NCBI GenBank assembly: GCA_025463135.1
Contig: JAOAPY010000015.1
Coordinates: 186,001-250,000, forward strand
Reading direction: 5' to 3'
Length of the DNA stretch: 64,000 nt
Source: Acidobacteriota bacterium
GTDB lineage: Bacteria > Acidobacteriota > Blastocatellia > Pyrinomonadales > Pyrinomonadaceae
The position numbers were made by a program, and so were the translations under genes. Below, in pieces: positions 10,470 through 23,393 of the stretch (positions within the stretch are counted from its first letter, which is position 1; each line of letters opens with the position of its first letter). Below the pieces are notes generated by a model. The model ran no database searches and was not told where the DNA came from. It worked only from the letters and a program-made list of their open reading frames with translations.

Positions 10470-13400
10470 TCAATTGGGGGCGCGCGCAAGGGGACGCTGT
10501 GATCGCAAAGACGCGACCGTATTACGCCGTTCCGTCTTTTCTGCTCTGAACCATCCAAGTTCGCTTCCCAGTCTTCGCCTGGGCGCGTGGGCGTTCTGTG
10601 CTGCCGGCTGAGCAGCGGGGGGCGCCGGTGATGCGGACAGTAAACGCCTCTGTTCGTCCGGCGACATCAGGAACATATACCTTACCAGGAGCCGCGCATG
10701 GTCGCCGTGATAGTCCGCGACGTCCTTTGGTGGTTTAGGCAGGTTGACGGCCCAGCGTTCGCCGTCTCTTTTGAACAGTCCCGAAGGCATCGCCGTCCCC
10801 GGACTTATCTGCGAAGGATCAAGCAGCCAACGGAAAGTCCACTCAGGCTTCAGTCGCTCGCTGGCCAGCAGAAAGTTTGGCGCAATAGCCTTCGCGTCAT
10901 GCGCCGGTTCGCCGGTAATGTGGCACTTCAAACACGGCGTGCCGGACGTGAACATCTCACGCGCTACCAACTTGTCCTGCTCAGTCAGCGGATCGAGTTG
11001 CTCTTTGATATATGGCTCCTGTTGTCCGGACAGAGCCATGAAAAAACGCACCAACGTTTGTAATTCGTTGGGCGAAAAATTAAATGTCGGCATCCGCACT
11101 TTCAGGTATGGTCGCACACCGTTACGATCCGCGCCAGGCTGCGCCGGGTATTTATCACCACTCTGCGGCCCACCTTGAGGCGCATTCCCAACAGGCGCAT
11201 TACTTTGCGCCGCGGGTGTTGCCGCCGGGACCTGGCCACCGTTGAGCGAGGGATCATGCAGGAAGCGCAGCAACCAGTTTGGATCGACCCGCGCGCCCTC
11301 GCTGGTCAGACGCGGAGGCAACAGATCCTTGCCTTCGGGCGTTGAATACTGCGGTAAATCCATCAGTATTGAACGCTGTCCAACCTGCACCTGGTGGCAA
11401 CCGACGCAGTTATATTTCTTGATCAGCCACCAGCCGTTTTGAATGTCCTGGCGCCGCTGATCCTGTGGATCATAGAAGAGCGACTTGGGAACATTGGCGC
11501 CTTCGGTGCCGACGCTGCCCAGGAGGAAGGTGGTCAAGGCGGTGCGCCACTCATCCGTCAAATATGGCTTGGGCATGCGCAGCCGATCCTGAGGGGCCTT
11601 CTCTTTGCCCTTGTCGTAAATCGAAGGGTCAGCGAGCTTATGTTCAAAGAAGCCCTTGTGCGTATACCATTCCTTCTCTTTCCGGTCCGGAAATAGTTCC
11701 TTAAAGAGTGGATCCCTTCCCTGCTCCGCATCCTGCGTGGACGTGGCGAAGTCGAGTCGCTCGAGCGGCGTCGCGCCTTCGACAGTCAACTCCTTGCCGA
11801 TGCGTTGTTCTTCTTCAAAGCCGTTGATCTCGTGGCAGCCGGCGCAACCGAACTGTTTGATCAACTGTCGGCCCTGCTCCTTGAGATTCGGATCATCCAT
11901 AAACGCAGTCGCCTCGCGACCGGGCCGCGATGAAAGCGAGAACAAATAGGTAGCAAGGTCGCGCGCTTCGGTTTCGCTCAAACGGAAATTAGGCATCACC
12001 GTCATGTTCTGCACCTGCAATTCGGCGCCGTCGATCGGGCACTTGGAATGCAGTTCGGTATCGAAGACAAACGGCTTGCCTGCCTGCTTGTAATCGTCGG
12101 CAGTAAGATCGCGCTTGTGTTTGGGACAGTAAGGCGCCCAGCGCTCGCGTGGATTGTGGATCCAGCGAACGATGTATTCGAAATTCGCTTTCTCACCAAC
12201 CTTACTCAGATTCGCGGCGAACGTTCCACCGACTTTATTGTCCTCAGCTCCAAGCGAATGACAGGCGAGACAGCCTTTCGTTTCGAACAGGTCCTTGCCG
12301 TTGTTTACGTCACCTTTCTGCTGGTCGGGAGTCTTCCCGTCAAATCCTGTTTGCCAGAGATAGGCCGAGATAGCTTTGATTTCGTGATCGCCGTTCTTAT
12401 CGACGGAGAAACGCCAGAAGGTCGGCATCTTGGTGCCGGGACGAAACGCCTGCGGATCTTTCAACCATTCAGGGATCCATTCCTTCGCCAACTTCAAACG
12501 CACATCTTTCAGATTGGGCCCGACCTTTTTCTGGTCCTGCATCAGGTATTTGCTTTGCAGGTTCATCTGGTCGATGCGTGCAGCCAGCAAGCTGTTGGTG
12601 ACCCGCAAACTTTCGGCATGGGCCAACAGCCGGCGCGCATCGGTATCGTCAGTGGCTTCCGCCGCGGCAGCCGCATCCTGGCGGCCAAGTTTATCGTTGG
12701 CGGTAATCTGATCTTCCAGTTGACTGATCGTCTGACGCGCGTTGGTCAGGGCGTCGGTCTCGCGATCGAAGCCTTCGTAACGATGGCATCCCATACAGCC
12801 GCGTTGCGAAAAAAGATCGCGCCCCAGATTCAGCGTCTCGGCGCCTTGCGTAACTCGGTCCTTCGAGTGGCATTGCTGGCAGCCGGCTTCGGTATTTTCT
12901 TTTTCGAACATCGGCCACAGCCAGAATTTATTCAGGCCGTGTGCTTTTTCCTCACCGGTAGTCGCGCGACCATTGCCCCAGTGACAACTCGAACAGCCAA
13001 AGCGGTCGGGTTTATGGATGTCAAGCAATTCCTTATTGGGATGGCTTACAAAAGCGCGCGCCAGGTCATCCGGGTCCTTGCCGGGACCGCCGGGCGCCAT
13101 ATCTTCGGCCCTGATAGTGAGAGGTGAACGGACGCCCAGGTGGCAAACCTCACAGCGATCGGCGATGTTGTAATCATTGACGCTGACCTGGTGACCCAGG
13201 ATGGAATAATCGAAACTCTTGAGTCCCTTCTTGACGCCGTCGATCTGGCTGGGCGTCAGAATGGTGAGGTGGTTTTTTAGATAGTCGTCACGTTTCTTGG
13301 CGAGCTCCTGGCTCTCACGACTCTTCTCAGCCTTGTCGCCCAACAGCTTTGCTTTTTGTTCACGCAGATCGTTGTACGTCTTTTCCAGGGTCGCATAATC

Positions 13401-13961
13401 CATCTTCACGACCTTGATCTTGCCCGCGGCATCGTCGTCGGGCATTTCGACTGCGACCGTCTCGTTGCGCTTGTCTTCGGCTTGCTTTCTGTATTTTTCC
13501 TTCGCTCCCCCGCTAGCCTGTTCGATGTTGTAATTGATGACGGTGAGTTTGCCGCGCTGGTTTTGGAACGGCTCAGTTACCGCATCGAGCTTGGGTTGAA
13601 TCTTCTTAACTTCGGCGTTGATTTGATCGATATCGGGCTGGACTTTCTCTTTTGCCGCGTTGGCTTCCGCATCGAGCGCCTGGTATTCAGGACTATTCTT
13701 TATCTCGTCCTCACCCTGGCTGGCGCGCTCTCTTATGCTGTTCAGATAGCGGTCGTAGCGCGCCACAAATTCGCGCTGCATTTTTTTCCAGGGACGCTGA
13801 CCAATGGCTTCATCGTACAACGACCATGCCAGGGAAAACGTCAGCAGCAAGGCGCAGACGAGCATAATGCCGCTGGTCGACCAGCTCACGATAGGATCGT
13901 GTGCCGGGACATCAGGTTCTCGCTTTGCTAACGCGTCCGTAGCTTCAGGAGAGTCTGCCAC
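10470..13961 (-). CDS. Membrane-anchored octaheme cytochrome c of a bc-type complex
   Basis: 1163 residues. One membrane helix near the N-terminus (about 30-48) is followed by a charged coiled-coil region (about 55-230) and a large periplasmic part. Eight CxxCH motifs lie at about residues 270, 323, 361, 389, 564, 706, 852 and 1010. A second coiled coil (about 400-470) splits the hemes into two groups of four. A CP...CP pair (about 612 and 641) between hemes five and six may be a small metal site. It follows petD by 22 bp, so it most likely takes the place of cytochrome c1/f. The last 40 residues are basic and low-complexity. Confidence 0.9.
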   Translation of the reverse strand: MADSPEATDALAKREPDVPAHDPIVSWSTSGIMLVCALLLTFSLAWSLYDEAIGQRPWKKMQREFVARYDRYLNSIRERASQGEDEIKNSPEYQALDAEANAAKEKVQPDIDQINAEVKKIQPKLDAVTEPFQNQRGKLTVINYNIEQASGGAKEKYRKQAEDKRNETVAVEMPDDDAAGKIKVVKMDYATLEKTYNDLREQKAKLLGDKAEKSRESQELAKKRDDYLKNHLTILTPSQIDGVKKGLKSFDYSILGHQVSVNDYNIADRCEVCHLGVRSPLTIRAEDMAPGGPGKDPDDLARAFVSHPNKELLDIHKPDRFGCSSCHWGNGRATTGEEKAHGLNKFWLWPMFEKENTEAGCQQCHSKDRVTQGAETLNLGRDLFSQRGCMGCHRYEGFDRETDALTNARQTISQLEDQITANDKLGRQDAAAAAEATDDTDARRLLAHAESLRVTNSLLAARIDQMNLQSKYLMQDQKKVGPNLKDVRLKLAKEWIPEWLKDPQAFRPGTKMPTFWRFSVDKNGDHEIKAISAYLWQTGFDGKTPDQQKGDVNNGKDLFETKGCLACHSLGAEDNKVGGTFAANLSKVGEKANFEYIVRWIHNPRERWAPYCPKHKRDLTADDYKQAGKPFVFDTELHSKCPIDGAELQVQNMTVMPNFRLSETEARDLATYLFSLSSRPGREATAFMDDPNLKEQGRQLIKQFGCAGCHEINGFEEEQRIGKELTVEGATPLERLDFATSTQDAEQGRDPLFKELFPDRKEKEWYTHKGFFEHKLADPSIYDKGKEKAPQDRLRMPKPYLTDEWRTALTTFLLGSVGTEGANVPKSLFYDPQDQRRQDIQNGWWLIKKYNCVGCHQVQVGQRSILMDLPQYSTPEGKDLLPPRLTSEGARVDPNWLLRFLHDPSLNGGQVPAATPAAQSNAPVGNAPQGGPQSGDKYPAQPGADRNGVRPYLKVRMPTFNFSPNELQTLVRFFMALSGQQEPYIKEQLDPLTEQDKLVAREMFTSGTPCLKCHITGEPAHDAKAIAPNFLLASERLKPEWTFRWLLDPSQISPGTAMPSGLFKRDGERWAVNLPKPPKDVADYHGDHARLLVRYMFLMSPDEQRRLLSASPAPPAAQPAAQNAHAPRRRLGSELGWFRAEKTERRNTVASLRSQRPLARAPN

Positions 13962-13983: not shown

Positions 13984-15024
13984 TCATATATTGAAATACG
14001 GTGTTACCCACACATACTTAATTGTCAGCGCCAGCCTCAGTATTAGCTTCACGGGCAACGCCAGCAGCACACTAACGGCGAAAAACTGAAATGTCAGATA
14101 CTGCAACAGACTGGTGCGCGCGAGCAGCTTGCTTTCAAATTTGTCTTTCGTCGTAATCCATAACCAGAGACGCCGCGTCAATGGCAGCGAACCGTCAAAG
14201 CGATCCAGTCCGCCGCGCGTCATCAGCCAGTGGAAAAAGAGCCCGCCAAGAATGTAAAAGCCGCCCACTACAAGGCCGCCGAAAATTGCCTTGCCCGCGG
14301 TGCTTTGCAGAAATCCGAGATGCAAAAACTTTCCAATCGCACTGGTAGCGATAAAGTCATGCAGGTCGACATTCTTATCAAACACCACCGTGTTGTGGTC
14401 CCAGGTCTGGCCGGGCCAGAACCAGATCCAACCAGGACCGCGAATGAATGTGCCAATGAAGATCAGCATGATCCACATCAGGAAACCCCAGCCAAACATG
14501 CCCAGCGCAAACCGGCGCTGCTTGATGGTGTAATAGCCGTTGCCGAAAGGACTCGAATCGACATAAGGAAATACCATCAAGCCGATCATAATCAGCGATG
14601 GCATCACCACGCCCGCAATCCACGGATCAAAATAGACCAGCATCTCCTGCAAGCCGAGGAAGTACCACGGCGCCTTTGAGGGATTCATGGTCAAGTTGGG
14701 ATTCGATGGTTCTTCGAGCGGGGCGTTCAGCGTTATGGACCAGACAAACAGGATCACGGTAACAATCAAAGTCACCAGAAACTCGATGCGCACGAGATAG
14801 GGCCAGACGTGTAATTCCTTAGCCCAGCCGGGACGCCACGGCTCGACCTTACGATGGTGCGTCTTCGCGAGTTTGGTATCGCCTTCGAGGCGAACGATCA
14901 ACCGATCGTTAGCGCGGGCTTGCCTGATTCCCATCCAGGTAAAGATGGGTACCAGAAAAAGCATCGCCACAATGGGCACATTGTCAGGCGCCGAAGCTAT
15001 TATCCAAAGTTGATGCCAATCCAT
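13984..15024 (-). CDS. petD: Cytochrome b C-terminal part (PetD-like subunit), extended
   Basis: 346 residues, much longer than the about 160 of b6f subunit IV. The core (about 75-205) has NPSKAPWYFLGLQEML, the quinol-site region; the usual PEWY Glu is replaced, reading APWY. Additional membrane helices are present before and after, with a WIWFWPGQ segment and a C-terminal helix pair. Together with the petB-type gene upstream it makes a split cytochrome b. It is 111 bp after petB, with an inverted repeat in the gap. Confidence 0.9.
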   Translation of the reverse strand: MDWHQLWIIASAPDNVPIVAMLFLVPIFTWMGIRQARANDRLIVRLEGDTKLAKTHHRKVEPWRPGWAKELHVWPYLVRIEFLVTLIVTVILFVWSITLNAPLEEPSNPNLTMNPSKAPWYFLGLQEMLVYFDPWIAGVVMPSLIMIGLMVFPYVDSSPFGNGYYTIKQRRFALGMFGWGFLMWIMLIFIGTFIRGPGWIWFWPGQTWDHNTVVFDKNVDLHDFIATSAIGKFLHLGFLQSTAGKAIFGGLVVGGFYILGGLFFHWLMTRGGLDRFDGSLPLTRRLWLWITTKDKFESKLLARTSLLQYLTFQFFAVSVLLALPVKLILRLALTIKYVWVTPYFNI

Positions 15025-15135: not shown

Positions 15136-16065
15136 CTATTTCTTCTTCACTGCCTTCAGCTCGGATTCCAGCATCACCGGAGCCGGTCCCGAGATACCAC
15201 CATCTTTGCGTATGCGCCAGAAGTGCACTGCCATAAAGATCGAAGCCACTAACGGAATGCCGATGCAATGCCATATATATGAACGCAGCAATGCATTCGA
15301 ATCCACAATCGAGCCCCCGAGCAATCCAAACCGAACATCGTTGAACGGCGTCATTCCCAGTTGCGGACCCAGAGGTCCTTCGCTGCCAAACATGGGCGTG
15401 GCCCGCGCCATGTTCGTGCCCACCGTTACCGCCCAGAATCCCAATTGGTCATCAGGCAGCAGGTAACCGGTAAACGAAAGGAGCAGGGTGAGCACCAACA
15501 GCACCACGCCGACACACCAATTAAATTCCCTTGGCCGCTTGTAAGATCCCGTGAGTACCACTCGGAACATGTGCAGCCAGGTTGTAATCACCATCAGGTG
15601 CGCGGCCCAGCGATGCATGTTCCTCAACAACTTGCCAAAGGGAACATCGTGTTCGAGATAAAGGATGTCGCGAAATGCCAGGACTTTCTGCGGATGGTAA
15701 TAGAACATCAGCAGCACGCCGGTGAAGGTGAGCACGACGAACAAATAGAAAGTGATGCCGCCCATACCCCAGGTGAACCCGTACCGAGTGGCGTCGCGAT
15801 TGATCTTGGCGGGATGCAGGTGCAGAAAGACATTCGACAGAATCGCGAGCGAGCGATTGCGGGGATCGGCACGATCGTGCGAAACACGAAAGATCGATTT
15901 CCAGAGCTGCGTATCCTGCGGGTCTTTGTAAGTCTTTGCTTCTTCGATCGCTCGTTCTTTGAGCGCGGCTGTTTCCTCGCGCACTCGTCCCATAAGACCC
16001 GAGGCGGTCTTTTCGCCTTCGCCAAGCTGTTTGGTCTTTTTTTGGTCCGGTCGCTCAGATTCCAT
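15136..16065 (-). CDS. petB: Cytochrome b N-terminal part (PetB-like)
   Basis: 309 residues. After a charged, helical N-terminal extension of about 85 residues come four membrane helices. Heme-ligand histidines are visible in RNMHRWAAHLMV and IWHCIGIPLVASIFMAVHFW, with WLHMFRVVLTGSYK between, as in cytochrome b/b6. GYLLPDDQLGFWAVTVGTN matches the quinol-oxidation side. It lies 39 bp after the Rieske gene and before petD, giving the order Rieske, b, d, c. The long N-terminal extension is unusual. Confidence 0.93.
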   Translation of the reverse strand: MESERPDQKKTKQLGEGEKTASGLMGRVREETAALKERAIEEAKTYKDPQDTQLWKSIFRVSHDRADPRNRSLAILSNVFLHLHPAKINRDATRYGFTWGMGGITFYLFVVLTFTGVLLMFYYHPQKVLAFRDILYLEHDVPFGKLLRNMHRWAAHLMVITTWLHMFRVVLTGSYKRPREFNWCVGVVLLVLTLLLSFTGYLLPDDQLGFWAVTVGTNMARATPMFGSEGPLGPQLGMTPFNDVRFGLLGGSIVDSNALLRSYIWHCIGIPLVASIFMAVHFWRIRKDGGISGPAPVMLESELKAVKKK

Positions 16066-16104: not shown

Positions 16105-16716
16105 CTAGAGCGGAATGTAGGCGTTATCTTTATCGAATTCACTGGGTTCACCTTTGGGCCATTTGAACAGCCGGTTGGTGTCGACGACAATCTGTCCTTC
16201 CGGATCTATTTCCACTCGCGCCCGATCCATGGGACGCGGGGCGGGGCCTTCAAAGTTAACGCCTTCGCTGTCATAGCCGCTGCCATGACAGGGACACTTG
16301 AATTTATTTTCGCTGGCCTTCCAATCAGGTGTGCAGCCGAGATGTGTGCACTTGGCGTAAATGACGAACAGCCGATCAGAAGTCTTATCGACCCAAATCC
16401 TATATTGCTGCTGCCACTTTGTATCCACACCTAAAGCATAGTCACTGGGAAATCCGATTTTGAAAACAGTGGAAGGCTCCTGAATTGAGCGCGGCAAAAA
16501 GAAGCGCAGAAACATGAGAAACGAAGTCGTGAGAAAGCCCGCGACGCTGGCCCAAACAATCCGGCGCCTCATCTTATTCACAGATGAATCCGGTGTGCTC
16601 TCGACGACGGCTCCCGCGGGATTCGCCGCAGGCGGCCGAGCAGCGGTTTTCGCTACCGGCGTGGTCGCGGCAACAGTGCTTTCCGGTGTGCTTCCTTCGC
16701 CGGACTGGCTATCCAC
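16105..16716 (-). CDS. petC: Rieske 2Fe-2S protein
   Basis: The GTG at 16716 is chosen as start because GGGGAGGAG precedes it by 8 bases on the minus strand; a longer reading from 16788 has no such site. The protein, about 203 residues, has an Ala/Pro-rich N-terminus, one membrane helix following an RRR stretch, and a C-terminal Rieske domain with CTHLGC and CPCHGSGY, which hold the cluster. It is first in the respiratory operon, so the promoter should lie upstream of 16716. It passes electrons from quinol to the cytochrome c subunit. Confidence 0.93.
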   Translation of the reverse strand: MDSQSGEGSTPESTVAATTPVAKTAARPPAANPAGAVVESTPDSSVNKMRRRIVWASVAGFLTTSFLMFLRFFLPRSIQEPSTVFKIGFPSDYALGVDTKWQQQYRIWVDKTSDRLFVIYAKCTHLGCTPDWKASENKFKCPCHGSGYDSEGVNFEGPAPRPMDRARVEIDPEGQIVVDTNRLFKWPKGEPSEFDKDNAYIPL

Positions 16717-16788
16717 TTTGACAACTCCTCCCCAATTTACAAACGTCTTTATTTTTGGAGCGACCCACGCAGATACACTCCTGCACAA

Positions 16789-17125: not shown

Positions 17126-19432
17126 TTACAAAACAGCGTCGTTAAAGTTCAGTTCCCGGCTGCAGATCTCGATCGAGTCAAACAACCTTTCCCGCTCGGC
17201 ATCAGCCGTTGCCTGGCGGTATGCCATCACTAGATCCTTCAGCGTCGCCAGGTCTTTGTACAGACCGGCATTCTCAATCGGCGGAGTCAGATAAGAAATC
17301 AACTCGGCATAAGAACGTCGCTTGGCAATTGAGCCCTCCGAAGGGTTGTTGACACTGTAGATATAAAGGTTAGGCAGCTCGCCGATCAATCTGTCCGGCC
17401 AGCACTCGCCGGATAACCCAACTTGCTTGCCGGGCATGAACTCCATGGCGCCGTGTGTGCCGACATGGATTACGGCATCTGCCGAGAACACCTTTTCCAT
17501 AAAGGCGTAAAACGCCATGAAGCCATGATGCGGAGTACCGCTACGCGCCATCATCAAACGCATCGGGTCGCCTTCATAGCCAAAACTGGGTTGCACGCCG
17601 ATAAAGATATTCCCCAACGTCACTCCGTGAATCAGAAGATCGCCGGCAAAAGTATTGATGCGGCCGGGCGCGCTGCCCCAATCCTTCTCGACTTCATCCA
17701 CATACGGACAAAGCCGCCGGTAGTCATCGACCTTCAGACGATGGACCACATTGACCGTTGATCCGAACTTCTCTGAGTTCCCGCCCAACATCAATTCGCG
17801 CAACTGCTCTGGAGAGTCGGGCAGATCAAGCACATAGCCCTCGGCCTGCAATTTCACAAGCGTGTCCCAAACACTGGGGAAAACATCGAGGTCGGCGGCC
17901 GTACCGATGTTCCCTTTGTTGGGCGGAAAGCAATACAGCACCAGCGCCAGCTTTAATGATGCGCGCGGCGCTGTGCTTAAACGGTTCCAGCGGCGCAAAC
18001 GGCGCGCGAATCTTTGGCAGCGATCTTCGAGCGCTACTGGTTCGACCCCATTTGCCGGCAAGCCTCCATAGACAAAGGGCTCTGTCGCGCCATCAATCTC
18101 CGGGATCGCTATCTGCATTCCCGCCTGCACCGGGTTGAGCCCGGTCCGCGAAGTGTTCCACGATTCGATGGTCTGCATGTCGAGGCTGATAGCGGAACGA
18201 TAAGGACGATTCAGCGTAGTTAGAAATTCCGCGGCCGCTTCGCTGTCATTCATAGCCGGGCCGCCGACAAAGCTGAAGCCGGTAAGCGAAACCAGTTGAC
18301 TGATACGCGATCCATGTCCGACCAACTTCAGTTTGTCGCTCGCCCTCCCAGGATGATTCTTTGCCTGCAACGACAAACTGAAGTTTGTCGGACTCTTCGG
18401 TCCCTGATCCAGGAAATATTTCTCGCATGCCTCGCGGTTATCCATCAACGTGGCGAGCACCGGAATAACAGAAAGCCCCTCGGCCTCAATCGATCGAATC
18501 AAGTGATCGTAATGTTTTGTCGCCTTGCTGATGACCTGCGGCCGCATCAGCAGCAACCCAATCGTCGTCTCCGGATGTAGGGGCGGACCTATGTGTCCGC
18601 CCTGCTCGGGTGAAACGGCTCGTGGGGCTCTCGTCTTCCTTGCGCGCTGCGCGTACCACTTGCTATACGCCTCGAACGATTCAAACATGCGCGGCGCGTC
18701 CGGATGATAGATCGCCACGGACGGCATCTTTTCCGGTGGCGGCACATGCACCGGTTTTAGTCGCTCATCCGGAACATAATTCTTCAACGCGCAAAGAATC
18801 ATTGCCTGCACGTTTGCCGGCGTCGGTTGCAGAAAATAACAAAAGATTGAGAGGTAGTTCTTAACATCGCGCAAAGCGCCCGCGCCCGGAACAAACCGAA
18901 GAACGCCAGGGAGATGATCCGCAAGCTTCAAATAGCGCGTGTGATTGTTACCATTCTTGGAACGGAAAGCTTGCGCCTGAGTGCCTACCCACGATCCAAC
19001 CATCCTCAGCACATTCAGACTGCCCTTCGCCCTGCTTCTTTCATTCTGCGTCTTTACGCTTTTGCGGGAAATCTGTTCTGAGGATGATGCCACCCCGAGT
19101 AGCCGCGCCAAATCCAACTTTCCCATGCGCGTGCGCCGCATCAGATCCGGCATGCAGTTGATTACGATTACCGCGCGATGTCGCGCTTGATGCCGCTTTA
19201 ACTCGGTAAGTAGTCGCGCAGCGTTCTCACCATCCATAACATGAATTACAAAGACGATGTCCGACCCGCCCAGGTCCTGCGCAACATCGATCCATTCGTC
19301 TTCAGTCAGCGAGGCGCCAAAGTTATGCGCGGCAATACTGAGATCCAGCCCGTATTCTCGATTGATCTCGCGCTCAGCACTCTTCAAAGGAGCGAGCAGA
19401 CTCGAGCCGATATAAAAGACGGTGACCTTCAC
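17126..19432 (-). CDS. bchH: Magnesium/cobalt chelatase large subunit, N-terminal half (BchH-N)
   Basis: 768 residues from a GTG that directly follows the stop of the preceding gene. Residues 1-115 match the N-terminal domain of BchH/ChlH (CMPDLMRRTRMGKLD region). Then come IYHPDAPRMFESFEAYSKWY, VSLTGFSFVGGPA, the CobN/BchH core (GNIGTAADLDVF, GVQPSFGYEGDPMRL, HVGTHGAMEFMPGKQVGLSGECWPDRLIG) and NNPSEGSIAKRRSYAELISYLTPP. It stops exactly where the remaining third of BchH would begin, and that part is encoded by the upstream gene. Two repeats are embedded in frame (about residues 277-286 and 347-372). The metal inserted, Mg or Co, cannot be told from sequence alone. Confidence 0.9.
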   Translation of the reverse strand: MKVTVFYIGSSLLAPLKSAEREINREYGLDLSIAAHNFGASLTEDEWIDVAQDLGGSDIVFVIHVMDGENAARLLTELKRHQARHRAVIVINCMPDLMRRTRMGKLDLARLLGVASSSEQISRKSVKTQNERSRAKGSLNVLRMVGSWVGTQAQAFRSKNGNNHTRYLKLADHLPGVLRFVPGAGALRDVKNYLSIFCYFLQPTPANVQAMILCALKNYVPDERLKPVHVPPPEKMPSVAIYHPDAPRMFESFEAYSKWYAQRARKTRAPRAVSPEQGGHIGPPLHPETTIGLLLMRPQVISKATKHYDHLIRSIEAEGLSVIPVLATLMDNREACEKYFLDQGPKSPTNFSLSLQAKNHPGRASDKLKLVGHGSRISQLVSLTGFSFVGGPAMNDSEAAAEFLTTLNRPYRSAISLDMQTIESWNTSRTGLNPVQAGMQIAIPEIDGATEPFVYGGLPANGVEPVALEDRCQRFARRLRRWNRLSTAPRASLKLALVLYCFPPNKGNIGTAADLDVFPSVWDTLVKLQAEGYVLDLPDSPEQLRELMLGGNSEKFGSTVNVVHRLKVDDYRRLCPYVDEVEKDWGSAPGRINTFAGDLLIHGVTLGNIFIGVQPSFGYEGDPMRLMMARSGTPHHGFMAFYAFMEKVFSADAVIHVGTHGAMEFMPGKQVGLSGECWPDRLIGELPNLYIYSVNNPSEGSIAKRRSYAELISYLTPPIENAGLYKDLATLKDLVMAYRQATADAERERLFDSIEICSRELNFNDAVL
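18316..18393. repeat. 78-bp paired hairpin repeat inserted in frame in bchH-N
   Basis: The outer 23 bases at each end are inverted copies with one mismatch, each containing ACTTCAGTTTGTCG-type palindromes. Length is 78 bp, exactly 26 codons, so the reading frame is kept. It encodes about residues 347-372 of the chelatase, just before the conserved VSLTGF block where BchH proteins normally have only a short linker. An intergenic copy of the same length is at 28195. Confidence 0.85.
18577..18603. repeat. GGGGCGGAC repeat end inside bchH-N
   Basis: AGGGGCGGACCTATGTGTCC and the next bases match one end of the paired element at 53341-53411 with one difference. Here it is read in the minus frame as GGHIGPPL at about residues 278-285 of BchH-N, in a linker between two conserved blocks. 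Only a single end is recognisable. Confidence 0.65.
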
Positions 19433-21160
19433 TCAGGCAACTCCCTCAAGCTGGTCCTCAAGATCGGAAATGATGTCGCGCAGTCTGGCAACAGTGTTCG
19501 AGTCGACATCCCAGTAGCCGCGGCCGTGCGCTTCGAGCAGACGATTGACCAGGGAATGCGCAGAGTGTGGATTCAAATTGCTCAGCCGTTGGAGCATCTC
19601 TTCGTCAAGCAGGAAAGTTTTCGCGACCTCCGTGTACACCCAATCATCGACGGCATCGGCGGTCGCACTCCAGCCAAAGGTGTTCGAGACATGATTTTCG
19701 ATCTCGGCCACGCCGCGAAAGCCGTGCTTCAGCATTCCTTCGTACCATTTTGGATTAAGAGTTTTCGCGCGCGTCTCGAGCTGCACGGTCTCTTCCAGAG
19801 TTCGAATTTGCGCGTCGCGTGAAAGCGTGTCCGACAAATAGATGGCGGGACGTGCGCGCGCGCGTTTCTCAACCGCCTTGGAGATGCCGCCCAGATATTC
19901 AAAGTAGTGATCGACATCCGTAATGCCAATCTCAAAGGTATCGATATTCTGATAGGTGGCTTCGACACGGGCCAGCGCGCGATCCATCGCCACCCGCGCT
20001 TCCCTGCCCTCAATCTGCCGGCCCCGCGAATCTCGTCCGTAGGCGAAACACTTTCGCGTGACAAAAAGGTCACCCAGTGTTTCTTCGCTCTCCCACTGCG
20101 AATCCATCACCATGAAGTTCACGTTAGTACCGTAATTTCCCGGGGCGTTGGAAAAGACTCGGATCGCTGCTTCATCAAAGTCGCAGGAGGTTGATTGAAT
20201 CTGCTCCATTACATTGCGCCGCACATAGTTCAGCTCGGCCGGTTCCTCGAGCTGCGCGACGAGACGCACCGCTTTGTCTAAAAGCTCGACTGTCGGACTG
20301 AACAAATCGCGAAAGATCCCGGACACGGTCATCACCACATCCACACGCGGCCGCTTCAATTCCGCGAGGGGTATGGCCGTGACTTGTGTGACGCGATTCA
20401 AGCCATCGCGCACTGGTCGCACACCCAGTAACCATAAGGCCTGGGCCACACCCTCTCCCTGGGTCTTGATGTTGTCGAGTCCCCAAAGCACCAGGGCCAT
20501 TGCGTGCGGATAACGGCCGTGCTCACTCTGGTATCGTTCGAGCAGACGCTTGGCCACCACTTCTGCTTTCGCAAATGCGACTTCGGAAGGCACAGCATAG
20601 GGATTGATTGCGTGCGTGTTACGTCCGGTAGGAAGAATCGCGGGGTTCTGAACAATGTCGGCGCCCGGACCGGGCTGGATGTATTCGCCGCACAGCGCGC
20701 GCAACAGCGCTTCTATCTCAACGTTCGTCTCCAACTCGCGCGAAATTCGATCCAGTAATAGAAAGGTGGGCCGAGAGTCTTCGGGATTAACGCTGGCGAT
20801 ATCTTTCAGTTGCGTGGCGGCCGCATCGACGCCGCCGGCCATGAACGTTTGCATAGCTGTCGTCAGGATTGCTGCAACTTGTTCGCGTTGCCGCAACTCC
20901 TCTTCGCTGATGGCTCTTGCGCGTTGGTTGGAAGCTAGCGACCCGAAGCCCAGGCCCTCAGCAATCAGATCAGGCAGCGCGCGCGAGTTTGCTTCCGGCC
21001 TATCGAAGGACGAAACCATACGCAGCATGTCCGCGCGCTCGGATCCGACTGAAGGCCGGCCAAAAACGTGCAGACCCGTGGGAATCAAACGCTGTTCGAT
21101 CTCCAACAGGCGATCGTGGAGATCCAGGACGCGTCGATCCCGCTCAGCGGATGTAGTCAT
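19433..21160 (-). CDS. bchH: Magnesium/cobalt chelatase large subunit, C-terminal half (BchH-C)
   Basis: About 575 residues from the ATG at 21160 (MTTSAERD); a longer reading to 21247 would begin inside a repeat. It matches the last third of BchH/ChlH: RLIPTGLHVFGRP, GRNTHAINPYAVPSEVAFAKAEVVAKRLLERY, LVLWGLDNIKTQGEGVAQALWLLGVRPV, FRDLFSPTVELLDKAVRL and GATEEL-type end regions including WSATADAVDDWVYTEVAKTFLLDEEML. It lies immediately upstream of the gene for the N-terminal half, with no spacer (TGA then GTG). The two products probably assemble into one chelatase subunit. Confidence 0.9.
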   Translation of the reverse strand: MTTSAERDRRVLDLHDRLLEIEQRLIPTGLHVFGRPSVGSERADMLRMVSSFDRPEANSRALPDLIAEGLGFGSLASNQRARAISEEELRQREQVAAILTTAMQTFMAGGVDAAATQLKDIASVNPEDSRPTFLLLDRISRELETNVEIEALLRALCGEYIQPGPGADIVQNPAILPTGRNTHAINPYAVPSEVAFAKAEVVAKRLLERYQSEHGRYPHAMALVLWGLDNIKTQGEGVAQALWLLGVRPVRDGLNRVTQVTAIPLAELKRPRVDVVMTVSGIFRDLFSPTVELLDKAVRLVAQLEEPAELNYVRRNVMEQIQSTSCDFDEAAIRVFSNAPGNYGTNVNFMVMDSQWESEETLGDLFVTRKCFAYGRDSRGRQIEGREARVAMDRALARVEATYQNIDTFEIGITDVDHYFEYLGGISKAVEKRARARPAIYLSDTLSRDAQIRTLEETVQLETRAKTLNPKWYEGMLKHGFRGVAEIENHVSNTFGWSATADAVDDWVYTEVAKTFLLDEEMLQRLSNLNPHSAHSLVNRLLEAHGRGYWDVDSNTVARLRDIISDLEDQLEGVA

Positions 21161-21184: not shown

Positions 21185-21264
21185 GTGCGACAAACTTTTA
21201 GTTTGTCGTTGTGCTCGCGAAATTCTTCTTTCGAAAATCTGCCACAAACTGAAGTTTGTCGGAC
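21185..21264. repeat. Paired hairpin repeat between chlID and bchH-C, overlapping the chlID end
   Basis: About 80 bp: GACAAACTTTTAGTTTGTC at 21189-21207 and CACAAACTGAAGTTTGTCGG near 21243-21262, facing each other. The chlID reading frame runs into it: the last 22 codons are repeat-derived and the TAA stop at 21198-21200 sits in the loop of the left hairpin. Confidence 0.8.
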
Positions 21265-23393
21265 ATCAATGGACGGTTTGCGGATTGGTCCCGCGTCGAA
21301 ATTCGCAGCTGCCGCGCACCGAGTTGCTTGGCCAGTTCCTGCGTATTTCGGTTGGATGCAAAGTCGTTTTGCGTCTCGACCACCATCGTCTGAACTCGCA
21401 ACGCGCGCAACCTCGCTCCCAAAAGAGAAACTTCGTGAGCAATTAGTTCTTGGCGGAGCTCGCGGCCTCTTGATCCAACTGCCTGCGCAGTGCTCGGTTG
21501 CAGGGCAACGTTGGCGCCGCCATCGGTGAAAAGGAGCAGCACGATGTCGCCGTCCTGATGATTTGCCGCGTGTTGCGCTACTTTGAGTGAACTTTGAAGT
21601 CCGGCAGACAGAGGTGTTCCGCCACCGATGCTAAGCGAGTCGAGCACCCGCTTTGCTCGCACCATACTGCGAGAGGCAGGTAAAAGAATCTCAGCAGACG
21701 TACCTCGAAAGCCCACGATGGCAACACGATCGCGATCAATATAGGACTCCTTTAGTAGATTAAGCAGCGCCCCTCTGGCCTGACTGATCCGTTTCAGCGC
21801 CATGCTGCCCGATGTGTCCAATGCGAATATGAAGAGCGTTCCTCGTTTGCTCGCAAATTGTTTGAAGCGAAGCGCATCCGCAGGAATAGCCTGCAGGCGG
21901 TTTCTTATTGGATGTGGTTCAGCTTCTGCGTCCGGATGGCGATAGCCTGCCGCGATGAGGGTCCGCAGCGTCGCGTCCACTGCGATTCGCGCACCGGCAC
22001 TCCTGTGTAAAATGGATCGGCTGTATCTTCCGCGCGCCGAGTTGTATGTAGTACGTCCGGTTTTTGCGCGTGAGAGGCGCGGCTTCGCTTTCACTTCTTT
22101 TTTTAAGTCGTGATCACTGCGTGGCTTTGGCAATTGAGCCTCAACCGGAGCCGAAGCCTCAGAATGATTTTCCGAGTCAGCGCCATTCTTACCGCCCGGT
22201 TCAAAGTTCCCCTGTGCGCTGGTGCGTTGATCGCGGGAACCCTTCCTACCTCCCGCCGAGTTGTTACCACCGTCGCCTTTATGAGGCCGAACCAGATCCG
22301 GTTCAGAAAACACCCTATCCAGGGTCTGTTCAATTCGCGCGCCCACTGTGGATTCCGATAAGGCATCCCGATGAAGTCGATGGCGCAGGGACATCGGAGC
22401 AACCCGCCGCACATCTGCTTCCGAAACAGCCTTGCGTCCGGCAAAAGCAGCCAGGGCCCGCGCCGCTCGCGTGATCGTTAGTTCACCCCGATGGCCGTCG
22501 ACCTGCAATTCTGAACATAGCGTAGCAATCTGTCGCAACAACGGCCGACCGACTTTCACTGTCGCAAAGTTCCGGCTGGCGCGCGCAATTTTTTGTCGCA
22601 ACTGTTTTTGTTCAGTCTCCTTCAACGCGCAAAATTCTTCAGGGTTACGTTCAAACGACTCGCGTCTTTCGACGATCGCGATCCTCTGCTCGACATCATT
22701 CTCAGTTTTGACTTCGACATAAAGACCAAAGCGGTCCAGCAATTGAGGTCGCAACTCGCCTTCCTCCGGATTGCCCGAACCCACCAGGACGAATCGCGCC
22801 GGATGTTCCACGGAAATATTCTCACGCTCGACTTTGTTGCGGCCGGTAGTTGCGACGTCAAGCAGTAAGTCCACGAGGTGATCTTCCAGAAGGTTCACTT
22901 CGTCGATATACAGAAATCCGCGATTGGCCCGCGCCAACAATCCGGGTTCAAAGGCCTTGATGCCTTCAGTCAGGGCCCGCTGAATATCTATTGCACCGCA
23001 GACGCGGTCCTCGGTTGCTCCCAGAGGCAGATCGACGACCGGTACCGCGCGTCTTTGGCGCTCGATCTTCGCGTCCGCAGACTGCCTCCTTTGGCATTCA
23101 GCGCAGCGAAATCTCTCATCGTTTGGATCACAATTAAAGAGACAGCCGCGGGTCGCCGAAATCTCCGGTAATAAGTCAGCCAGTGCGCGCACCGCGGTCG
23201 ACTTACCGGTTCCCCGATGCCCCATCATCAAGACGCCTCCGATTGACGGGCCGATTACATTCAGGATCAGTCCAAGCTTCATCTCTTCCTGACCAACTAT
23301 CCCTGTAAAAGGATAAGAGTCAGGAGCTGTTGCACCGCGAGGTGATCTCGTTCGCAATTCCCTTTCTGGTTGTGGAGCGTTCGTTCTCTTCAT
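21198..23393 (-). CDS. Fused chelatase ATPase-VWA subunit (ChlI-ChlD fusion)
   Basis: 731 residues. The N-terminal AAA+ ATPase has GHRGTGKS (about 58-65), a four-Cys cluster (84, 88, 97, 100) probably binding metal or Fe-S, LPLGATEDRVCG, the Walker B region LYIDEVNLLEDHLVDLLLD and GSGNPEEGELRPQLLDRFGL. A charged linker (about 360-450) leads to a VWA domain with DTSGSM MIDAS motif (526-531), GGGTPLSAGL and LLFTDGGANV. Such I-D fusions with the four-Cys insertion are known mainly from cobaltochelatase-type loci of non-phototrophs. It drives metal insertion by the H subunit encoded next. Its tail after about residue 709 is encoded by a repeat. Confidence 0.92.
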   Translation of the reverse strand: MKRTNAPQPERELRTRSPRGATAPDSYPFTGIVGQEEMKLGLILNVIGPSIGGVLMMGHRGTGKSTAVRALADLLPEISATRGCLFNCDPNDERFRCAECQRRQSADAKIERQRRAVPVVDLPLGATEDRVCGAIDIQRALTEGIKAFEPGLLARANRGFLYIDEVNLLEDHLVDLLLDVATTGRNKVERENISVEHPARFVLVGSGNPEEGELRPQLLDRFGLYVEVKTENDVEQRIAIVERRESFERNPEEFCALKETEQKQLRQKIARASRNFATVKVGRPLLRQIATLCSELQVDGHRGELTITRAARALAAFAGRKAVSEADVRRVAPMSLRHRLHRDALSESTVGARIEQTLDRVFSEPDLVRPHKGDGGNNSAGGRKGSRDQRTSAQGNFEPGGKNGADSENHSEASAPVEAQLPKPRSDHDLKKEVKAKPRLSRAKTGRTTYNSARGRYSRSILHRSAGARIAVDATLRTLIAAGYRHPDAEAEPHPIRNRLQAIPADALRFKQFASKRGTLFIFALDTSGSMALKRISQARGALLNLLKESYIDRDRVAIVGFRGTSAEILLPASRSMVRAKRVLDSLSIGGGTPLSAGLQSSLKVAQHAANHQDGDIVLLLFTDGGANVALQPSTAQAVGSRGRELRQELIAHEVSLLGARLRALRVQTMVVETQNDFASNRNTQELAKQLGARQLRISTRDQSANRPLMSDKLQFVADFRKKNFASTTTN

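Follow-up and report, generated by a model that had tools for sequence, protein, structure and literature searches.

Our analysis of a 64,000-nt stretch of acidobacterial DNA (hereafter the window) revealed that the large subunit of a BchH/ChlH-type chelatase is encoded there by two adjacent genes in swapped order, the gene for the C-terminal half preceding that for the N-terminal half. Magnesium chelatase normally starts chlorophyll synthesis, and H is its large porphyrin-binding subunit. In the reading that we favor, with a probability of roughly two in three, the two genes would constitute one class I H subunit, reassembled from its halves, driven by an I-D motor protein, acting most likely on Mg2+, derived from a single early split and serving a purpose other than chlorophyll or corrin synthesis. 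A search of the open-access literature retrieved no account of BchH/ChlH being split or order-swapped, or of this chelatase in Acidobacteriota, in agreement with the preliminary description of this DNA, whose author knew of no permuted split in the family; as far as that literature goes, the arrangement appears to be new.

The two genes (Table 1) encode complementary parts of one BchH/ChlH-type chelatase subunit: no portion of the 1090-position PF02514 model (CobN-Mg_chel) is covered twice by their products, and a DUF3479 domain is found on the N-half in addition to its PF02514 segment. The possibility of two full paralogues, raised in the preliminary description, is thus ruled out, the halves being complementary on both PF02514 and ChlH. 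Alignment to ChlH places the break where fused BchH/ChlH is continuous, as had been claimed, and the coordinates of the two frames, their C-before-N order and the direct succession of TGA and GTG were likewise borne out by the list of open reading frames and by reading the sequence. The C-half gene comes first in transcription; the N-half gene follows in frame with zero spacer (gcc-TGA-GTG-aag), its GTG being preceded at 8 nt by GAGGGAG, a ribosome-site-like stretch. The two halves are the only PF02514 pieces in the window's own genome, which is 100% complete by estimate. A scan of the window for promoters and terminators found promoter-side sites no commoner than in shuffled sequences. A 9-pair hairpin lacking a T-run is located on the minus strand at 21188-21208, where the stop of the I-D gene is separated from the start of the C-half gene.

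Table 1. Features of the split chelatase locus and its conserved neighborhood (window coordinates; ChlH ranges refer to Synechocystis ChlH in 4zhj chain numbering, 20 above native).
Feature	Coordinates	Strand	Details
Fused I-D AAA+/integrin-domain protein (ChlI-like N part, ChlD-like C part)	21198..23393	-	First gene of the presumed operon
C-terminal half, BchH/ChlH-type H subunit	19433..21160	-	575 aa, ATG start; PF02514 552-1089; ChlH 761-1350
N-terminal half, same BchH/ChlH-type H subunit	17126..19432	-	768 aa, GTG start; DUF3479 and PF02514 3-539; ChlH 178-727
C-half/N-half junction	19430..19447	-	GAGGGAG 19447-19441; TGA 19435-19433; GTG 19432-19430; direct sequence read
Rieske protein	16105..16788	-	CTHLGC and CPCHGSGYD motifs; conserved downstream neighbor
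Cytochrome b (b6-like N part)	15136..16065	-	Conserved neighbor; close orthologue found together with the split chelatase
Second cytochrome b part (subunit IV-like)	13984..15024	-	Conserved neighbor
Large multihaem cytochrome c	10470..13961	-	Many CxxCH motifs; conserved neighbor

Each half alone fails the BchH equivalog model TIGR02025 (704 and 668 against a cut-off of 829 bits), and the joined N+C sequence passes it with 1388 bits. The joined sequence also exceeds the cut-offs of PRK12493 (1461 vs 1300 bits) and, narrowly, PRK13405 (1170 vs 1166 bits); every CobN model scores it below the respective cut-off. Two trees of joined N+C sequences and fused relatives unite all split proteins in a single clade (support 100 and 100/100), which falls with BchH/ChlH and apart from CobN. 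With modest support (90/89), this clade is placed close to the BchH of purple bacteria and of genomes G086 and G114, in both of which BchH is a fused single chain. These two genomes and G157 are presumably Chloracidobacterium-like phototrophs; G086, the phototroph-like genome used for comparison, has four PF00148 genes and a BchM above the cut-off. A CobN-type protein is present besides BchH in G086 (L065), G114 and G157. G086 lacks CbiC, and its CobN therefore lacks an obvious corrin substrate.

The I-D protein of the window carries AAA lid and VWA domains and is above the TIGR02030 cut-off (502.6 vs 467); it also matches TIGR02031 and TIGR02442 ("putative cobaltochelatase"), both below the cut-off. 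The TIGR02442 match, together with the ability of ChlI/D-type motors to serve CobN (PMC9227772), is what could be expected of a cobaltochelatase whose halves act as CobN with the I-D protein in aerobic vitamin B12 synthesis. Given the CobN scores of the joined sequence, the position of the split clade on the BchH side, and the active-site residue and missing corrin gene described below, we find this explanation very improbable. An I-D gene, or separate I and D genes, lies directly upstream of the H halves in most loci; the flanks of the split H genes yielded no I-D gene at L018, L021, L022, L025, L027, L043, L045, L030, L038 and L039.

The same arrangement recurs across Acidobacteriota, and its carriers are mostly soil bacteria. 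A contig scan with the C-half as query yielded 58 loci. In 46 acidobacterial loci having both halves on the examined piece, these are encoded C-then-N on one strand in separate frames, and the window, G009 and G123 bring the total to about 49. None of these approximately 49 loci has the N-then-C order, and no single fused C-N frame, i.e., a circular permutant, was found in any acidobacterial locus examined. An assembly error hiding a true N-then-C order, which had been considered in the preliminary description, is therefore ruled out, as dozens of independently assembled genomes agree. One of the 46 loci, L053, has broken frames and keeps the C-then-N order; the frames of L014 are broken too. 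At L049, no N-half was found within about 7.7 kb past the C-half. The fused relatives that were read (Planctomycetota, Chlorobiota, Chloroflexota, and Bacillota) each have N and C, in that order, in one frame, and in a distant relative, Tepidiforma (L060), N precedes C in broken frames.

The spacing between the C and N genes varies from -17 to 1558 nt (39 junctions) and is short or overlapping in most relatives, 12 of the 39 junctions having the 4-nt overlap typical of coupled translation. The break point is constant, falling after "...ERxxLYxxIEExxxxLNL" and before "ERDRRVLxLYEQLLEIEQRLIPTGLHV", and sits between two helices in the predicted models of the halves. Genes inserted between the halves were GxxExxY-like, DUF2059-like and caspase-like (named by eye); they look unrelated and sporadic, and assigning a function from them was rejected. 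The GxxExxY-like gene, which looks like a sporadic insertion, was observed at L004:8427-8804, L005:9866-10243, L027:7235-7621, L028:9870-10247, and L043:8791-9156.

We propose that the split would have arisen once, early in the acidobacterial lineages carrying it, and then been kept. The polypeptides themselves are unpermuted, and only the gene order is. This order could be the outcome of duplication followed by reciprocal loss, or of a fission after which one half moved; the second route explains it as well as the circular-permutation route does. According to the preliminary description, a circular-permutation-type event had produced two polypeptides that reassociate. Reassociation is retained below on account of the divided active site, but the permutation-type event found no confirmation, with no remnant half-copies above 60 bits flanking the split loci and no fused C-N frame. 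The lack of remnants at any locus is also in line with fission followed by relocation of one half, rather than a tandem duplication whose outer parts were lost, as are the unrelated genes between the halves in several loci and the situation in G251, where the C-half is found 86 kb into a 482-kb contig, behind separate I and D genes, and the N-half is on a different contig. However, remnants of an old duplication would have vanished, and C-N adjacency, otherwise nearly universal, is what the duplication route predicts. Fission with relocation, which concerns the history of the genes and not their function, is a tentative explanation to which we give somewhat less than an even chance.

The active-site residues of ChlH are H621, E625, Y651, Y653, E660, and H1174 (PMC13297055). 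All six are conserved in every one of the 21 split proteins compared; the N gene supplies five of them and the C gene H1174. In the window, the N-half equivalents of the five are H660, E664, Y690, Y692, and E699 (E699 codon at 17338-17336), and H1174 corresponds to H418 of the C-half (codon at 19909-19907); in the residue comparison, CobN references carry Asp at the latter place. Long invariant blocks are present in both halves over 39 sequences. Since domain III is on the N chain and domains V and VI are on the C chain, neither half alone could form the site, and because the active-site residues are divided between two genes, the halves would have to assemble to work; from the sequences, we infer that the two chains form one subunit. 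The predicted models of the N-half and the C-half each match ChlH crystal structures best, the C-half modelled alone being poor (pTM 0.54).

In the proposed mechanism, the N-half (head, neck, and domain III) and the C-half (domains V and VI) would dock via the domain IV backbone to give a closed cage. The metal-insertion site would lie between the chains, with the equivalents of H621, E625, Y653, and E660 coming from the N chain and that of H1174 from the C chain. The I-D AAA+ protein would drive insertion of the metal into protoporphyrin IX or a close relative, and the active-site fingerprint makes Mg2+ the most likely metal.

CbiC/CobH is required in both B12 routes. It was found in none of the 27 distinct split-bearing genomes, the window's own included (G404 and G405 repeat G377 and G189 and were counted once), these genomes being mostly drafts or metagenome assemblies, with the seven from the phylum sample at least 96% complete; CbiC was found in 7 of 14 control genomes. 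There would therefore be no corrin ring to metallate, and a role in B12 synthesis was rejected on the absence of CbiC, the scores below the CobN cut-offs and the His at the H1174 place. PF00148 (BchN/BchB and relatives) was absent or below the cut-off in all 27 genomes, again including the window's own, and BchM (TIGR02021) exceeded its cut-off in 0 of 23; these two are the chlorophyll markers tested. A ferrochelatase was identified in 22 of 23 genomes with the split (all except G123), so that haem synthesis is independent of the split chelatase and replacement of ferrochelatase by it is ruled out. As the hosts are without the tested corrin and chlorophyll genes, the product would serve a purpose outside both pathways, and the split chelatase probably has a job still unrecognised in its hosts.

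Could the genes instead be a relic of a phototrophic ancestor, drifting or coding only for porphyrin binders or sensors? The missing downstream chlorophyll genes (PF00148 and BchM tested) are consistent with this, as are the patchy presence of the chelatase, lost in G025 and kept in G377 of the same genus, and the broken frames of L053 and L014. Nevertheless, neither the tested catalytic residues nor the long conserved blocks vary across deeply diverged sequences, and most loci have retained the motor gene next to the halves, which makes a relic quite unlikely.

The genomic neighborhood offers a hint to the purpose of the product. The genes typically run in the order I-D (or I, D), H-C, H-N, followed by Rieske, cytochrome b, the second cytochrome b part, and multihaem cytochrome c genes. 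The downstream set from Rieske to multihaem cytochrome c was found in 26 loci, counting the window and including the early-branching Bryobacterales (L037 and L041) and L042; the upstream flank varies, being occupied by ccm genes or glycolytic genes. A close cytochrome b orthologue (about 69% identity and above) occurs in 24 of 396 phylum genomes, among them all seven split-chelatase genomes of this sample (hypergeometric 1.2e-9, kinship ignored); the other 17 have the cytochrome b and no split chelatase. Both are present, though not as neighbors, in G009 and G251. In G025, ccm adjoins the Rieske-cytochrome b genes, and in G377, from the same genus, the chelatase halves sit between them. We consider this association a lead to a joint function, not proof of it, and the product of the chelatase could possibly be tied to the adjacent Rieske/cytochrome b complex. 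A further-reaching proposal, that non-phototrophic Acidobacteriota employ a two-piece chelatase to make a Mg (or other metal) porphyrin that serves in or near a particular Rieske/cytochrome b6-like respiratory complex, and hence a tetrapyrrole cofactor outside haem, corrin, and chlorophyll chemistry, is unlikely, if conceivable. The multihaem cytochrome c of the window (10470-13961; 1163 residues) is membrane-anchored and would be an unusual electron acceptor for a Rieske/cytochrome b complex.

Haem genes around the locus and the haem-rich respiratory neighborhood would also suit a de-chelatase like HmuS of Bacteroidota, stripping iron or another metal from haem. HmuS is evidence that a protein of the chelatase fold can catalyse the opposite reaction (PMC12583661); it shares this fold and matches both halves. 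The second active-site motif of the split proteins, DHYFEYLGG, resembles LSLDHxxEFMGG of HmuS, and a ferritin-like (bacterioferritin-like, named by eye) gene follows the N-half in four loci (L003:12565-13029, L007, L021, and L022). However, HmuS works without ATP, is anchored in the membrane and contains an insertion rich in Met (PMC12583661), whereas the split operon has an AAA+ I-D motor. Moreover, a similar motif, DHYYEYLGG, is found in BchH of the phototroph-like G086, and the split sequences group with BchH. De-chelation is accordingly an improbable function, and a chelatase driven by the I-D motor is preferred.

Work on ChlH has dealt with a single chain of some 150 kDa, in which metal insertion is believed to be driven by movements of the domains. 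If a natural and ancient ChlH consists of two chains with the active site at their interface, the halves could be handled separately in structural and kinetic studies, and the covalent link in domain IV would prove dispensable. The presence of a Mg-type chelatase in hosts without the tested chlorophyll or corrin genes would mean an unrecognised use of metal porphyrins in respiring bacteria or another activity of the fold. For genome annotation, the label "magnesium chelatase" does not imply phototrophy, and the failure of split halves at equivalog cut-offs is a warning.

Several known systems resemble the split pair in part. The haem de-chelatase HmuS (PDB 9D26; PMC12583661) has in common with it the fold, a conserved His pair across the cavity, and hosts in which the context is outside chlorophyll and B12, but it is one membrane-anchored, ATP-independent chain, whereas the split pair consists of two chains with an adjacent ATPase gene. 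Cobaltochelatase CobN (TIGR02257; PDB 7C6O) shares the class I fold and the PF02514 profile; however, it has Asp where the split pair, scoring below all CobN cut-offs, has His, and it serves corrin synthesis, the marker of which is absent from the split-bearing hosts. Orphan chelatases as such are not new, since chelatase motor genes without a large subunit (PMC9227772) and CobN-annotated proteins untied to other cob genes (PMC12583661) are already known. Fused BchH-like proteins from Planctomycetota and Chlorobiota MAGs (L051, L052, and L056) have, like the split group, a BchH-type active site and no CbiC or PF00148, but they are single N-C chains with no I-D match in the flanks read; orphan BchH proteins are thus wider than the split group. 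Finally, the magnesium chelatase H subunit itself (BchH/ChlH; TIGR02025, PRK12493; PDB 4ZHJ, 6YSG) has the same domain content and active-site residues and pairs with an I-D motor, as the split pair does by gene context. BchH/ChlH is, however, one chain of about 1,300 residues with a chlorophyll pathway around it, whereas the split pair is two chains in hosts without the tested chlorophyll genes; being encoded by two genes in C-then-N order, it is therefore a variant of BchH/ChlH and not an ordinary member.
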